From the NCBI GenBank assembly GCA_905193485.1, contig CAJJOX010000144.1:1-5805 (forward strand): a DNA stretch of 5,805 nucleotides, read 5' to 3'. This document shows positions 1 to 5,805 of the stretch, piece by piece. A program made the translations under genes and the position numbers. How positions within the stretch are numbered: the stretch's first letter is position 1; every line of letters starts with the position of its first letter. The stretch comes from an uncultured Porphyromonadaceae bacterium. Lineage in GTDB: Bacteria; Bacteroidota; Bacteroidia; Bacteroidales; Muribaculaceae. Under the pieces are notes generated by a model that did not search any database, was not told the origin of the DNA, and was given only the letters and a program-made list of their open reading frames with translations.

Positions 1-368
1 CCGGCAAGGCGGCTCGCCCCGCCCCCCGCACCTACGGTTATCTCCAGGTGGCCGACGTGACCGACAACGGAGGCACGATCACCGCCGATGCCGCCAACGC
101 CTACACGATCGAAGCCACTACCGGCGGCTACACAATCAAAATGAGCAACGGCCACTACTTATATCAGACAGGAACCTACAACAGTTTCAACTTCTCCGAT
201 GCACCGTCGGAAGGAAATGTATGGGCCATCACCGCCCAGGGCGACGGATCGTTCAAGATCACCAATGTGGCCACAGGCAAGTTCATCCAATATGATTCGC
301 AATACAATTCATACGGTTGCTACAGCGATTCCAAAGGCGTCATGCCCGCTCTCTACGAGAAACAGTAA
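1..368 (+). CDS. C-terminal fragment of a secreted/surface Bacteroidales protein (5' end outside window)
   Basis: The reading frame beginning at base 3 is open from the left edge to TAA at 366-368, so this is the last ~121 residues of a longer protein. The GTG at 48 is internal and has no leader, so it is not the true start. The visible part is one beta-rich module with Tyr/Gly/Asn-rich motifs: TYGYLQVADV, then GHYLYQTGTYNSFNF, VWAITAQGDGSFKITNVATG and FIQYDSQYNSYG, ending in MPALYEKQ. From memory, this module closes many exported Bacteroidales proteins, including endonuclease/exonuclease/phosphatase-fold proteins encoded next to DUF5689 lipoproteins. That makes a nuclease-like N-terminal part possible, but it is not visible here. 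The next gene starts 29 bp downstream on the same strand with no terminator between, so the two are probably co-transcribed. The function of the module is unknown to me; surface or ligand binding is a guess. Confidence 0.8.
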   Translation, partial: GKAARPAPRTYGYLQVADVTDNGGTITADAANAYTIEATTGGYTIKMSNGHYLYQTGTYNSFNFSDAPSEGNVWAITAQGDGSFKITNVATGKFIQYDSQYNSYGCYSDSKGVMPALYEKQ

Positions 369-397: not shown

Positions 398-2731
398 ATG
401 AAAAAATTCAAAGCATATGCAGGCTTGATGCTGACCGCGCTGGTGGCAGGCTGGTCGATGACGTCGTGTCAGGACGATTTCGACTCTCCCGCCATGAACA
501 TCCCCGTGGCAACAATCCAGCCCAACACCTCCATAGCCGATGTCAAGGCTAAATACTGGAACGACGCCGACAACTATATCGACACCATCCGTCTGGCCGA
601 CAACGGCGAACACGTTGTCATAGCCGGCCGCGTGATCAGCTCCGACGCTTCAGGCAACATCTACAAAAGTCTTGTCATCCAGGATGCTACCGGCGCACTC
701 GCATTGTCGGTCAACGCCAACTCGCTCTACAACGATTACCGCATCGGTCAGGAGATTGTCATAGACCTCACCGACATGTATATCGGCAAATACAGCACCC
801 TCCAGCAGATGGGCTTCCCCGATTATTCGGCCGCCTATGGCTGGCAGGCGACTTTCATGCCGCTCGAATTCTTTAAAGATCATGCCCAGCTTAACGGGCT
901 TCCCCAGCCGTCGAAAATCGACACCCTCACGATATCGATAGGCGACCTCGGCAACGGCAGCGCCGAGCTTCAGAAATACCAGAGCCAGCTCGTGCGCTTC
1001 AACAACGTCACTTTTGAAGAAGGCGGTGACGTGTCGTTCTGTACCGCCCATAAAGTCAACACCAACCGCACGATCAAGGATGCAAACGGCAATACCATCA
1101 TCCTGCGCACTTCGGGCTATGCCAATTTCTGGAGCACCCGTCTGCCTTCAGGTTACGGTGACATCGTCGGCATATTGTCGACCTACAAATCGGGCGGCAA
1201 TATCCAGTGGCAGCTCGTCATCCGAAACACCGACGACCTTCTGAACTTCGGCAACCCCACTCTTCCCAAAGGCACCGAGGACAATCCTTATGACATTCTC
1301 GAGGCTATCGAAATGGTCAACAACTCGACAGCCAGATCGGCGTGGTATACCGGCTACATTGTCGGCAGCGTCAAGGCCGGCGTCGAAACCGTAAGCTCTC
1401 CCTCCGACATCATATGGGGTGCGGATGCCGAACTGGCCAACAATCTCGTGATCGGCCAGACACCCGAATCCGCGACTCTCGACGAGGTGATGTTTGTCAC
1501 GCTTCCCCAGGGTTCCACTCTCCGTCAGTACGGCAACCTGCGTGACGTGCCCGAAAATTACGGCAGACAGATGTGGATTCTCGCCATGCCCGGCGAAGAA
1601 CTCGGCATGAAAGCCTTTACCGGAAACACCGGAGCCGTCAACACGTGGCGCATCGAAGGTGTCACCGTTCCCGGTTCGGACACTCCCGGGGGGCCGGTGG
1701 CCGACGGTGACGGTTCGGAAGCCAAACCCTACAATCCCACACAGGTGCTCGCCAAGGGCAAATCGGTCAATGAGGCAGGCAAATGGGTGAGCGGTTACAT
1801 TGTCGGCTATATACCCGACAAATATCTCAACGGCGCAATCTTCACCGTTCCCGCCACTTCGGCAGCCAATGTGATGCTCGCCACGACACCCGACGAAACC
1901 GACTATACAAAATGCGTGCCTGTGCAGCTACCGCTCGGCAGCGGCGCACGCACCGCGCTCAACCTCATGGACAACCCAGGCAACCTCAAAAAACTCTGCT
2001 CGGTCTACGGTAACCTCGTCGCTTATTTCGGTGTGGCAGGCGTTAAGGAAACCTCCGATTACAAGATCGACGGAGGAAGCACCCCGACACCTCCGGATCC
2101 AGGCACCGCTGTGACGTCGTTTACCGAAAATTTCGACGGCGGCACATCTTTCCCCACCGCTGCCGGATTTACAATCGCCCAGACATCAGGCAATGCGTCG
2201 TGGTTTATCCGCAAAGCCGACAACAACAATCCCACCAACTGTGCCGAAGTGACCGCCTACGGCAGCAACAAGACTCCAGGAGCCGACGGATTCGTTTCAT
2301 GGCTCATATCATGTCCGCTCAATGTCGACGGCATGACCGACAAAGTGCTCACATTCAAATCAAAAGTCGGCTACAACGGCAATGGCACGCTTGAAGTCTA
2401 CGCTCTGTCTTCATCCGATCCGGCCACTGCGACAAAAACGAAACTCAGCGCCAATATCCCGCAGCCTGATGGTTCGTGGGGCGACTTCGTCGAGTCAGGC
2501 AATGTTTCGCTCGCCGGACTTTCGGGAACCGTCTACATCGGATTCTGCTACACTGCCGCCCAAGGCTCCAACTACACCACATATCGTGTCGAGGATGTCG
2601 TGGCCGGCACTTCCGGCTCCGGCGGCGGCGACAACCCCGACAATCCTCCGGTGACCGGCGAGAACAGCGCCGATCTCGGCACGCTTCCGGTCAGCAGCTC
2701 CTACAAGACCGTCACATCAACCGACGGTTAG
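398..2731 (+). CDS. Multidomain surface lipoprotein (DUF5689, two DUF6359-like modules, jelly-roll), cut by an in-frame amber codon
   Basis: As written this encodes 777 residues. It begins with a lipoprotein signal: Lys2-Lys3, a hydrophobic stretch, and lipobox MTSC with Cys24. Acidic residues follow (QDDFD, 25-29), resembling the Bacteroidetes lipoprotein export signal, so outer-surface display is likely. Domains in order: DUF5689-like at ~34-283 (GNIYKSLVIQDATGALALSV; ends WQLVIRNTDDLLNFG); DUF6359-like copy 1 at ~291-424 (GTEDNPYDILEAI, WYTGYIVG); copy 2 at ~437-558 (GDGSEAKPYNPTQV, WVSGYIVG); a Pro-rich linker; a choice-of-anchor/cleaved-adhesin-like jelly-roll at ~573-737 (ENFDGG, SWLISCPLNV, VYIGFCYTA); a Gly/Asp/Pro linker at ~738-755; then the first ~22 residues of another beta-sandwich, cut off by TAG at 2729-2731. 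The frame continues open to 3148, so the ancestral protein had 916 residues. DUF5689 proteins have no established enzymatic role; they are often encoded beside exported nucleases and outer-membrane receptors. Domain names are from memory of the families, not from a search. Confidence 0.9.
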   Translation: MKKFKAYAGLMLTALVAGWSMTSCQDDFDSPAMNIPVATIQPNTSIADVKAKYWNDADNYIDTIRLADNGEHVVIAGRVISSDASGNIYKSLVIQDATGALALSVNANSLYNDYRIGQEIVIDLTDMYIGKYSTLQQMGFPDYSAAYGWQATFMPLEFFKDHAQLNGLPQPSKIDTLTISIGDLGNGSAELQKYQSQLVRFNNVTFEEGGDVSFCTAHKVNTNRTIKDANGNTIILRTSGYANFWSTRLPSGYGDIVGILSTYKSGGNIQWQLVIRNTDDLLNFGNPTLPKGTEDNPYDILEAIEMVNNSTARSAWYTGYIVGSVKAGVETVSSPSDIIWGADAELANNLVIGQTPESATLDEVMFVTLPQGSTLRQYGNLRDVPENYGRQMWILAMPGEELGMKAFTGNTGAVNTWRIEGVTVPGSDTPGGPVADGDGSEAKPYNPTQVLAKGKSVNEAGKWVSGYIVGYIPDKYLNGAIFTVPATSAANVMLATTPDETDYTKCVPVQLPLGSGARTALNLMDNPGNLKKLCSVYGNLVAYFGVAGVKETSDYKIDGGSTPTPPDPGTAVTSFTENFDGGTSFPTAAGFTIAQTSGNASWFIRKADNNNPTNCAEVTAYGSNKTPGADGFVSWLISCPLNVDGMTDKVLTFKSKVGYNGNGTLEVYALSSSDPATATKTKLSANIPQPDGSWGDFVESGNVSLAGLSGTVYIGFCYTAAQGSNYTTYRVEDVVAGTSGSGGGDNPDNPPVTGENSADLGTLPVSSSYKTVTSTDG

Positions 2732-3148
2732 GTCGCCACCAACTGCGCTGTGCAGACAGGCGGTTCGAAGGACAACAATCCCGCATTCACCATGATCGGT
2801 TCGTCGGCCGATATCCATGCCGTTTGCCTCAACGGAAAGCAGTCGACTCCCGGATCGCTCGTTTCGCCGACTCTGACGGGCGGCATCAAAACGCTTTCGT
2901 TCAAATACGGTTTTGCGTTCAGCGACAAACAGGCCAAATTCACTATCAACATCAAACAGAACGGATCTGTCGTCAAAACACAGACGGTCGACCTGTCATC
3001 TGTCGAAAAAGGAAAGGCCGTAGACTTCAGCATGGACTGTAATGTAACCGGCAGCTTCGTGATCGAAATCGTCAACGACTGCAAGACCGGAACAGACAAA
3101 AACGTCGATCGCGTTTCAATCTGGAATATCACCTGGTCAAGCATGTGA
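2732..3148 (+). pseudogene. Readthrough remainder of the lipoprotein gene: C-terminal beta-sandwich domain after the amber codon
   Basis: This is the same frame as the gene starting at 398, continuing directly after TAG 2729-2731 for 138 codons to TGA 3146-3148. It encodes the rest of a domain that starts before the stop: ...TVTSTDG-(TAG)-VATNCAVQTGG..., then CLNGKQSTPGSLVSPTLTGG, IKTLSFKYGFAFSD, FTINIKQNGSVV and the ending DRVSIWNITWSSM. This pattern is familiar from C-terminal domains of exported Bacteroidales proteins, which to my recollection have Trp after the first Gly (GW-x-A-x-N). TGG to TAG is one base change. A GTG at 2750 could start a separate 132-residue ORF, but it lies inside the domain and has no leader, so I treat this as the broken 3' part of one gene. 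Codon usage and protein character have not decayed, so the stop is recent, a sequencing error, or read through. Confidence 0.8.
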
Positions 3149-3172
3149 TCATCCCGTTTTCATCAATAACAG

Positions 3173-3208
3173 CGGTGGCGGTTCCTTCGGGATCCGCCAT
3201 CGTCGTTT
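3173..3208 (+). terminator. Hairpin terminator of the lipoprotein operon (TTCG tetraloop)
   Basis: Bases 3173-3185 pair with 3190-3202 around a TTCG tetraloop (3186-3189). The 13-position stem has one G-T wobble and one T-T mismatch and is otherwise Watson-Crick and G/C-rich. It starts 25 bp after the TGA at 3146-3148. The following bases (TCGTTTAT) are only moderately T-rich, while a stronger T6 run lies at 3236-3241 behind a weak 4-bp stem (3217-3220 with 3230-3233) and may act as backup. No comparable hairpin follows the amber at 2729, so the original transcript unit ended here. Confidence 0.7.
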
Positions 3209-3261
3209 ATAACCGCCAGGCAGCGGCATCCTGTCTTTTTTGCTTTGATTAACGAAGTTTG

Positions 3262-3293
3262 TTGAGCGGGATTGCAAATAATTATTAACTTTG
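3262..3293 (+). promoter_or_regulatory. Bacteroidetes sigma-ABfr-type promoter for the gene at 3359
   Basis: A perfect -7 box TAACTTTG (consensus TAnnTTTG) lies at 3286-3293. A TTG at 3262-3264, 21 bp upstream, fits the weak -33 element. The spacer is A/T-rich (GCAAATAATTAT). Transcription would begin near 3300, giving an untranslated leader of roughly 58 nt whose last part is A-rich (CAGCAAAAAACACAGC) with no Shine-Dalgarno site, typical of this phylum. Confidence 0.75.
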
Positions 3294-3358: not shown

Positions 3359-5350
3359 ATGAGTTCCAGATACCCCTATATAGACATCGCCGTCAGTGTC
3401 ACCGACACCGGACGCCCGACAATGACATGCACCACCGAAGGCGCTCCGGAAGTGCAGCTTCCTTCGCTTGACGATATATCATCGCATTTTTCCGGTCTCA
3501 ACGACGGCTATCTGCTCTGGAATGCCGCCGGACGCCGTGCCTACACCTATTTTGTCATCAATGACGGCATTGCGCAGCCGGCACTTTCCGTGACGATACT
3601 CGTCGACAACGACGTTTTGCTGGCAGGCCGTCAGGTGGTGATGCTTGTTTCCGCGATCAAAAGCCGCGTGCTTGAGGGCGAAACTCTTTCTTCCGACACA
3701 TTCGACCGCCTGATACGTGAATCCGGCATGCCCGAGCAGCCGCTCCGTTGCGAAACAGACGGCTACGGCGACATGACCGGCAGCGGCGTCGCCTACCGCA
3801 CCTATTCCTCTCCCGGCGAGTTGTCAAACATTATCGGCTTCCCGCGGCAGAAAGCCTATGCGGGTTATCACGGGATCGCTGTCGTATCCGCTTCGGCAAT
3901 GCAGGTTTCGGGCGACAATATGCCTCAGATTTCAATGCCTGTCGATAAGGCTCTTATGGTGGTGTGCCCGGATGGCGTCAGCTCGTCTGAAAAGCGCGTG
4001 AGCTTCTCCGACCATCTCACCGTCACCTACCGCTGCGCGGGATTCGATCCCGTATCGGTGATGTTTGAGGTCGGCACCACAAACCGTTACGTGCGCATCA
4101 ACGGTCCGGCTCTTATCGTCAACAGCGCCCTTCATGCCGGCATAGTTTTCCGCCGTCGCGTACCATATAGCGTTGTCACGACGGGCGGACAGCCGGTCGA
4201 CACGTATACCATCCTCATCAACGGCCGTACGGCAAACCGCACGGAAGAGGGGTTTGAAGTCGCCAACACTGATTTTGAAAACGGCATAGTGCGCATCTCC
4301 GTGTCGTCGACCAATTTCAGCTCCTACACCGACGAATTCACTCCTGAAGGCCTCGAGAAAGCCTCGCCCCTTGAGGTAGTGCTCCGGCCCGAATCCCGCG
4401 ACATCCTTCTGCGCCTTGATTTCGGCGACGGCCGCGTTGTGGAAGAAAATCTCAACATTGAAAAAAACACTCCCGAATACTGCCGTTTGCGTGCAGGCTC
4501 GTTCCACGGATTCCGCGCCCATCGGCTCATGGGAAGCACCCCCGAAACATACAATATCGATGTGCGTCCAACATCGGTGCCGGCGCCCAAGCCGTTGCTC
4601 CCGAAAACGGTCGTCGTTACCGAACCGGAGCTTCCGTTTGCTGAAAATGAAGCTCCCGACGTCGCTTCCGCCGACGCCGAAACGCCTGCGGCTCCCGTCG
4701 CACCCGTAATTGAAAAGGCTCCCTCAGCCATCCACCGCGAAGAGAAAGTCGAACGGTGCGCCCCTAAATTCGTCAACGAAACCCGCGGCGAAACCGAGCA
4801 ATCCGCCCAACCGCGCCACAACGTCAGGAAAATCGCAGTCGTGTGTGCTTTTGTGGTGCTCGCCATCCTTGCCGTGTGGTGGATTGCCGGACTGATTTCC
4901 GGTTCGGGAAGCAGCGATGCGGTGGCCGATTCGACCGTAACTGCCGCAAACGCCGCCGTGCAAAGCACTCCGGCCGCCGCTCCGGCCGCACCATCGGCCG
5001 ACGAGCAGACCGATATCGATTATCTCAATGCCAATTCCGTGTGGGAGCGTTCCGAACTCAAAACAGCCAAATATCAGGCGCTGTACGACGCATTCACACA
5101 GGGTGATATCGACGCCATTGCGGGGAACGAATATTTCGCGGTGAAAGGCCGCGCGAAAAACGACCGCGCCAACAAGCTTATGGACAACCTTTGGAATGCA
5201 AAGACTTCCATCCCCGGCAAAAAGCACCCCGGCGTGCTTCGGAAATACGACTATAGCAAAGGCATTGACCTGTATAAACTCAACAATGCCATTGCCATAT
5301 ACATGCCCAAGGCTGAAGAATACAACAAAACGCCGCGGCCACAAATCTGA
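3359..5350 (+). CDS. Bitopic membrane protein of unknown function with PEGA/carboxypeptidase-regulatory-like module
   Basis: The 663-residue protein starts at ATG 3359, just after the promoter and A-rich leader, and ends at TGA 5348-5350. I do not recognise a named family. There is no N-terminal signal peptide. Residues 1 to ~265 form a mixed alpha/beta region with YLLWNAAGRRAYTYFVIND near 51-69 and GFPRQKAYAGYHGIAVVSA in the middle. Residues ~268-343 look like a small beta-sandwich of the PEGA or carboxypeptidase-regulatory type (VRISVSSTNFSSYTDEFTP, then SPLEVVLRPES). Another short beta region (~346-391) follows, then a Pro/Ala/Glu-rich low-complexity stretch (~403-475). A single transmembrane helix lies at ~492-513, preceded by RHNVRK. 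The basic flank puts the large N-terminal part in the cytoplasm and the C-terminus outside. An Ala/Pro linker leads to a compact, probably helical domain (~551-663) with NSVWERSEL and a basic segment. This layout resembles a transmembrane signalling or envelope-scaffold protein, but no catalytic motif is visible. It appears to be the first gene of its own transcript. Confidence 0.88.
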   Translation: MSSRYPYIDIAVSVTDTGRPTMTCTTEGAPEVQLPSLDDISSHFSGLNDGYLLWNAAGRRAYTYFVINDGIAQPALSVTILVDNDVLLAGRQVVMLVSAIKSRVLEGETLSSDTFDRLIRESGMPEQPLRCETDGYGDMTGSGVAYRTYSSPGELSNIIGFPRQKAYAGYHGIAVVSASAMQVSGDNMPQISMPVDKALMVVCPDGVSSSEKRVSFSDHLTVTYRCAGFDPVSVMFEVGTTNRYVRINGPALIVNSALHAGIVFRRRVPYSVVTTGGQPVDTYTILINGRTANRTEEGFEVANTDFENGIVRISVSSTNFSSYTDEFTPEGLEKASPLEVVLRPESRDILLRLDFGDGRVVEENLNIEKNTPEYCRLRAGSFHGFRAHRLMGSTPETYNIDVRPTSVPAPKPLLPKTVVVTEPELPFAENEAPDVASADAETPAAPVAPVIEKAPSAIHREEKVERCAPKFVNETRGETEQSAQPRHNVRKIAVVCAFVVLAILAVWWIAGLISGSGSSDAVADSTVTAANAAVQSTPAAAPAAPSADEQTDIDYLNANSVWERSELKTAKYQALYDAFTQGDIDAIAGNEYFAVKGRAKNDRANKLMDNLWNAKTSIPGKKHPGVLRKYDYSKGIDLYKLNNAIAIYMPKAEEYNKTPRPQI

Positions 5351-5408: not shown

Positions 5409-5421
5409 AACATTGACGACA

Positions 5422-5805
5422 ATGAAAAAAGTAATACTGCTGGCAGCCATCATAGCCGTTTTTATTCCGACGATAGGGAGGAGCGCCGCGCCGACGGTTG
5501 AAAACCGACGTACGGCAAGCAACTATTATGCCTATCCTTATCCTGAACTTAAACTTCCGGCTCTGACTCCCGCCCCGGAAGGGTATGCGCCGTTTCACAT
5601 CGAGCACTACGGGCGTCACGGCAGCCGCTGGCATATCGGCCAGTGGGTCTACCGTTCGCCTATCGACGAACTCCGTCCGGCCGAACGCAACGGGCGGCTC
5701 ACACCGCGCGGCAAAGAACTCCTGATGCAATTGCGCGATATAGAAATGGCTTCCCGCGGCCGTGACGGCGAGCTCACCCCGCCCCGCGCGCGGCAGCCTC
5801 CCGGG
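5422..5805 (+). CDS. Secreted histidine-phosphatase-superfamily protein, 5' part (truncated by window end)
   Basis: The ATG at 5422 opens a frame that stays open for 128 codons to the right edge. Residues 1 to ~23 form a signal peptide: MKK, hydrophobic core VILLAAIIAVFI, then a small-residue cleavage region near RSAA, so export to the periplasm or beyond is likely. At residues 59-71, HIEHYGRHGSRWH carries the RHGxR catalytic motif (R65, H66, G67, R69) of the histidine phosphatase superfamily; the His forms the phospho-histidine intermediate. The context resembles the acid phosphatase/phytase-like branch. It is followed by NGRLTPRGKELLMQL, another conserved stretch in these enzymes. The His-Asp/Glu motif expected near the C-terminus lies outside the window. 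The substrate is unknown; extracellular phosphomonoesters or inositol phosphates are possible. The gap of 71 bp to the gene upstream has no TAnnTTTG box, so it may be co-transcribed with that gene. The last ~8 residues (PPRARQPPG) deviate from what I expect (about PLGARQHRG), possibly edge errors. Confidence 0.88.
   Translation, partial: MKKVILLAAIIAVFIPTIGRSAAPTVENRRTASNYYAYPYPELKLPALTPAPEGYAPFHIEHYGRHGSRWHIGQWVYRSPIDELRPAERNGRLTPRGKELLMQLRDIEMASRGRDGELTPPRARQPPG

Follow-up and report, generated by a model that had tools for sequence, protein, structure and literature searches.

In Riemerella anatipestifer two adjacent genes are both reported as essential for natural transformation: RA0C_RS04915, whose carboxypeptidase-regulatory-like product (pfam13620) is predicted to lie in the outer membrane, and RA0C_RS04920, which codes for a protein with DUF5689 and choice-of-anchor J domains that the authors speculate binds DNA (PMC8459023). 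As far as that account describes the pair, it shares with the locus analyzed here a protein joining DUF5689 to an anchor-J domain and, in the relatives of this locus, a CarboxypepD_reg (PF13620) protein encoded just upstream. The likeness is one of domains and gene order; in contrast to the Riemerella pair, the present locus has two DUF5689 genes in tandem, and its product also carries a DUF6359 and ends in a CBM4-like domain. For this last domain the system of comparison is the CBM4-type carbohydrate-binding module, as in CBM4-2 of Rhodothermus marinus (2y64).

The whole stretch of DNA analyzed, 5,805 nucleotides long, is called the window, and it contains the following features:

3-368, plus strand: 3' end of the upstream gene, which codes for a DUF5689/DUF6359 protein in relatives; its tail has weak beta-trefoil-lectin-like matches
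398-2731, plus strand: truncated predicted lipoprotein of 777 aa, with signal peptide, DUF5689, DUF6359 and choice-of-anchor J
2663-2731, plus strand: what is left of the last domain ahead of the stop (residues 756-777, the first predicted strand only), together with the stop
2729-2731, plus strand: in-frame amber codon 778, a Trp column in relatives
2732-3148, plus strand: remainder of the last domain, a predicted CBM4-like jelly roll, open as far as the TGA at 3146-3148
2792-3148, plus strand: 118-aa ORF within the remnant, listed in the protein collection as the predicted protein P0122, starting at Met799 in read-through numbering
3168-3246, plus strand: hairpin and terminator-like site after the TGA
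3262-3293, plus strand: sequence resembling a Bacteroidetes-type promoter, ahead of the next gene (TTG at 3262, 21 bases, TAACTTTG at 3286)
3359-5350, plus strand: next gene, 663 aa, with no family over cut-off

The frame opened by the ATG at position 398 runs for 777 codons (398-2731) up to the TAG at 2729-2731, which is codon 778, and past it a further 138 codons (2732-3145) stay open until the TGA at 3146-3148, with neither a second stop nor a loss of frame among them. The GC3 of this post-stop region is 0.67 vs 0.70 before the stop, its codon-adaptation-like index of 0.651 falls among those of pre-stop pieces of 138 codons (0.613-0.751), and the remaining two frames of the same strand contain 5 and 1 stops. 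The post-stop codons look coding, and the original prediction of an in-frame TAG followed by 138 open codons up to a TGA was borne out by the analysis of frame and codon use. No interrupting stop besides this TAG was found in the gene frames of the window, and therefore there is no sign of a changed code. A tRNA search of the window found none.

By eye, the 777-aa product has a signal peptide with lipobox Cys24, a residue that is invariant across alignment A1, which fits a lipoprotein, and the product would presumably be located at the surface. Three domains scored over their cut-offs: DUF5689 (PF18942) at residues 42-280, with 191 bits vs a Pfam gathering cut-off of 28.6; DUF6359 (PF19886), in two stretches (the best at 456-558), with 150.1 bits vs a Pfam gathering cut-off of 23.2; and choice-of-anchor J (NF038128) at residues 575-735, with 53.3 bits vs a curated NCBIfam cut-off of 30. 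Two further models stayed under their curated cut-offs, namely that of the M949_1556 family lipoprotein (NF052645, NCBIfam; 187.2 bits, cut-off 475) and, on the last domain, that of a T9SS-dependent surface endonuclease (NF052644; 28 bits, cut-off 260). The last domain itself (residues about 756-916) is predicted to be a CBM4-like jelly roll of which only the first strand precedes the stop. This assignment comes from the predicted model of P0002, a 99% identical relative, in which strands are placed at residues 766-773 and 779-787 with a model pTM of only 0.39, and CBM4 is not distinctive, other jelly rolls aligning equally well to the last-domain model.

The original prediction had named, as usual in relatives of this domain, a GW-x-A-x-N motif with Trp at the stop column, and had proposed an alignment of homologs across it. 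A search with the read-through protein, carrying X at the stop, matched at least 764 proteins among 7,993 candidates scored, and the best 120 of these 764 were considered. For the column count 64 of the 120 listed relatives were aligned, the other 56 having partial coverage, a different architecture or a rank below P0071. The stop column is Trp in 63 of the 64, with a gap in the remaining one, and also in 71 of 71 rows of a second, overlapping alignment that includes 15 of those 56 and omits 8 of the first 64. The consensus around the column is GWVATN, and the motif named beforehand is thus confirmed. The closest relative among the matches listed is P0002, an intact protein of 916 aa from a cluster of 50 member sequences, to which the window is identical at 911 of 916 residues. 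P0002 and its relatives are intact DUF5689/DUF6359/choice-of-anchor J proteins, that is, the same gene with the same domains as the window copy, which differs from P0002 by the in-frame stop at codon 778. The nearest locus in a named genome, L001, belongs to a Muribaculaceae MAG and is 52% identical; the other named locus, L002, is from Bacteroidales, and a few relatives carry the source names Bacteroides sp., Firmicutes or Clostridium, all of them MAG names.

At the level of genomes, a match at E 1e-100 or better was obtained in 148 of the 297 family genomes drawn. The stops flagged among the matches listed (a TGA in G147, a TAA in G137 and, in another search, a TAA in G001) are all natural frame ends. 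Among the matches listed from those 148 of 297 genomes, many of which miss codon 778 and in which frameshifts are unflagged, no interrupting stop was found. The longest frames in 30 loci (L011-L040) end with TAA in 17 cases, TGA in 12 and TAG in one; in the latter, L011, the stop lies beyond undetermined bases, and the frames of L022, L027, L028 and L033 end outside the last-domain region.

These comparisons bear on the proposal that, through amber suppression or programmed readthrough, the lipoprotein is made in two lengths, one short and one long. The intact post-stop region with its coding-like codon use would agree with such a scheme, but a young nonsense allele would equally leave the downstream codons intact. 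The base after the TAG is G and not U, and a +4U is described in PMC5289835 as reducing readthrough in E. coli; hence, on the terms of that description, the context falls short of the strongest termination signal, a point of little weight at best. Against readthrough, of the 63 relatives that have a residue in this column none retains the stop, and no TAG was flagged among the matches listed in four homology searches, in one of which many matches miss the column. Moreover, the CTA anticodon is absent from all 73 tRNA matches in two related genomes, G267 (40) and G010 (33), which are of species other than that of the window. The option of suppression or readthrough, as put forward in the original prediction, consequently fared badly and appears very improbable. 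Phage recoding was considered separately and rejected, since the C-terminal piece matches none of 50,697 phage records and the N-terminal piece is without relative in viral contigs (six patterns).

The differences between the window and P0002 are not evenly spread. Four of the five fall within residues 778-815 (window 2729-2842), a span of 38 residues starting at the stop; were differences spread uniformly, such clustering would have a probability of about 0.001, by a test picked after the differences had been seen. A single point mutation does not account for a cluster around the stop. Three missense differences fall after the stop, and at two of these sites, 793 and 796, the window residues match those of the 89% relatives P0003-P0008, on which ground decay after the stop was rejected. 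From this sequence comparison, both sites look like ancestral states, P0002 then possibly being the derived one, or like a short recombined tract.

The same clustering around the stop could be taken as a mark of a base-call or assembly artefact, with the gene intact in the organism. The outermost stretches of the window (12-30, with RPAPR near the start, and 5775-5805, with PPRARQPPG at the end) differ from the few relatives set against them, which could reflect error-prone contig ends. However, two of the three neighbouring differences agree with residues in other relatives, and both the rest of the frame and the gene after it are uninterrupted and match relatives at 99% identity; the product of the next gene is identical to P0140 at 659 of 663 residues, and thus the window is not generally error-ridden. 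The 118-aa protein P0122, obtained in a search with the 138-aa remnant and identical to it from Met799 on, occurs on 2 contigs, the longest of 31,934 bases, although these possibly come from one sample. With an open frame, gene prediction should have given the long protein; both contigs therefore probably carry the break and, judging from the identical short protein, would carry the same stop. The base-call error that had been offered as a second option is therefore weakened by P0122, and an artefact is unlikely, if still the alternative to the stop being real that deserves some weight.

A further possibility is that the split represents an established two-gene arrangement, with the C-terminal domain encoded on its own. 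Short proteins with the last domain do exist: 18 were found, several of them on contigs too long for mere fragments, and of these P0122, P0123 and their partners were traced to contigs. Against this, the last domain occurs in 155 of 397 family genomes and, among the matches listed, only three frames are shorter than 300 aa, one by frameshift (G173, the L051 copy) and two at contig edges (G294, G391), the other last-domain matches listed lying in frames of at least 468 aa. The remnant is, by eye, without a signal peptide. One finding named beforehand as able to overturn the prediction was that homologs, too, stop here and are followed by a gene of its own for the downstream part; no such conserved two-gene arrangement was seen among the copies examined, and two other separate remnants trace to other lesions (P0027/P0123 and L051). 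An established split is thus hardly credible.

The two other lesions have their own character. P0027 (724 aa) and P0123 (172 aa) form a split relative, about 80% identical, each from one contig of 11,196 bases; its frame is lost inside anchor-J and there is an additional gap in the last domain. At L051 (770-3155, on a 3.34-Mb contig) the frame breaks off within the last domain, where a stretch rich in G lies a few codons beyond the GW motif; this may be a frameshift, a slippage site or a homopolymer error. P0059, whose longest contig has 14,885 bases, starts at residue 365 in window numbering and could have been broken at another point or be a fragment from the edge of a contig. The similarity of loci L058-L062 to the window protein extends as far as about residue 735-740, at 41-43% identity, and L059 matches DUF5689, DUF6359 and choice-of-anchor J; their frames end just after anchor-J, and no C-terminal remnant was found in the five fetched loci. 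Broken copies are uncommon, although more than one occurs, and some family members are without the last domain.

The reading that we prefer is that the DUF5689 gene of the window, likely from Muribaculaceae, is present as a nonsense allele, which likely ends translation before the terminal predicted jelly-roll domain, and we hold it with considerable confidence. The comparison of the frame with P0002, the alignment and the predicted model all place the stop within a domain which relatives have complete. Of the options in the original prediction, the best supported is that a Trp codon recently mutated to a stop, trimming the outermost domain: the 99% relative is intact, the Trp is conserved and the domain is predicted by the model. 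A selected surface variant, also suggested there, is a conjecture going further than these findings. The stop codon would have arisen where the aligned relatives have tryptophan, and translation would likely end at codon 778, before the terminal predicted jelly roll. The truncated protein would still be exported and anchored through its N-terminal Cys, with the DUF5689, DUF6359 and anchor-J domains intact, and would be without the outermost ligand-binding-like domain. The 138-codon remnant, having by eye no signal peptide of its own, would yield no surface product, and the nonsense allele would be young. The event looks like a probably recent strain-level mutation, and an ordinary one, because members without the last domain exist and other broken copies occur.

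An operon terminator had also been proposed past the second stop. The first 90 bases from the TGA fold at -30.2 kcal/mol, with the main hairpin at 3168-3207, and a terminator-like site follows at 3218-3246; the one site found in the stretch scanned is no excess over the 1.2 expected in shuffles, and the terminator is plausible and unproven. The match at 3262-3293, which we take to resemble a Bacteroidetes-type promoter, would fit the end of the transcript before the next gene. The 663-aa product of that gene, for which 119 relatives were found, has by eye one hydrophobic stretch, and relatives of the gene follow the DUF5689 genes in L054 and L056, with one extra open frame intervening in L055. 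Further on, 5413-5805 is the start of a gene and contains an HIEHYGRHGSRW motif, presumably resembling that of histidine-type phosphatases; this piece has no Pfam or NCBIfam match.

The gene setting is a more interesting lead than the nonsense allele itself. The tail of the upstream gene is 58-66% identical to L054, L055 and L056 (tblastn), and its full-length relative at L054:1300-3420 matches DUF5689 and DUF6359. The tail (3-368) gave RicinB_lectin_2 at 23 bits (cut-off 25.6) and Botulinum_HA-17 at 15.9 bits, both below cut-off; the beta-trefoil is a widespread fold and does not point to a toxin. The window part of the cluster, 3-2731, stops short of a large upstream gene, and the gene order was read from relatives. 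In five of five (L131/L054, L132/L055, L056, L001 and L002; open frames) a large protein comes first, then the DUF5689-type gene and then the lipoprotein gene. The large protein, of about 920 aa, carries CarboxypepD_reg (PF13620) in the three scanned, the other two being judged by their shared C-terminal end. No Pfam match beyond PF13620 and its sister PF13715, and no receptor-barrel domain, was found in the three scanned proteins, and the large protein is presumably receptor-like and located in the outer membrane.

This pairing, like that in Riemerella, suggests that the module takes up a polymer, possibly DNA. By that analogy, the complete module, composed of the receptor-like protein and the DUF5689 proteins, would take up a large polymer at the outer membrane, and uptake as its function is what we infer from the likeness. 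A bolder extension, that shedding of the outermost CBM4-like cap through nonsense or frameshift mutations is a recurrent strain-level switch by which Bacteroidales alter binding or uptake by this Riemerella-like module, seems to us a long shot. A bias toward trimming only the last domain is not claimed, as the remnants of the P0123 type came from a search aimed at exactly such remnants.

Taken as an isolated nonsense allele, the window would represent routine strain variation in a surface protein. Should the module correspond in Bacteroidales to the Riemerella pair, it would point to an outer-membrane system for the uptake of DNA or another polymer in abundant gut bacteria, and natural truncation alleles such as this one would then reveal which domain is dispensable.
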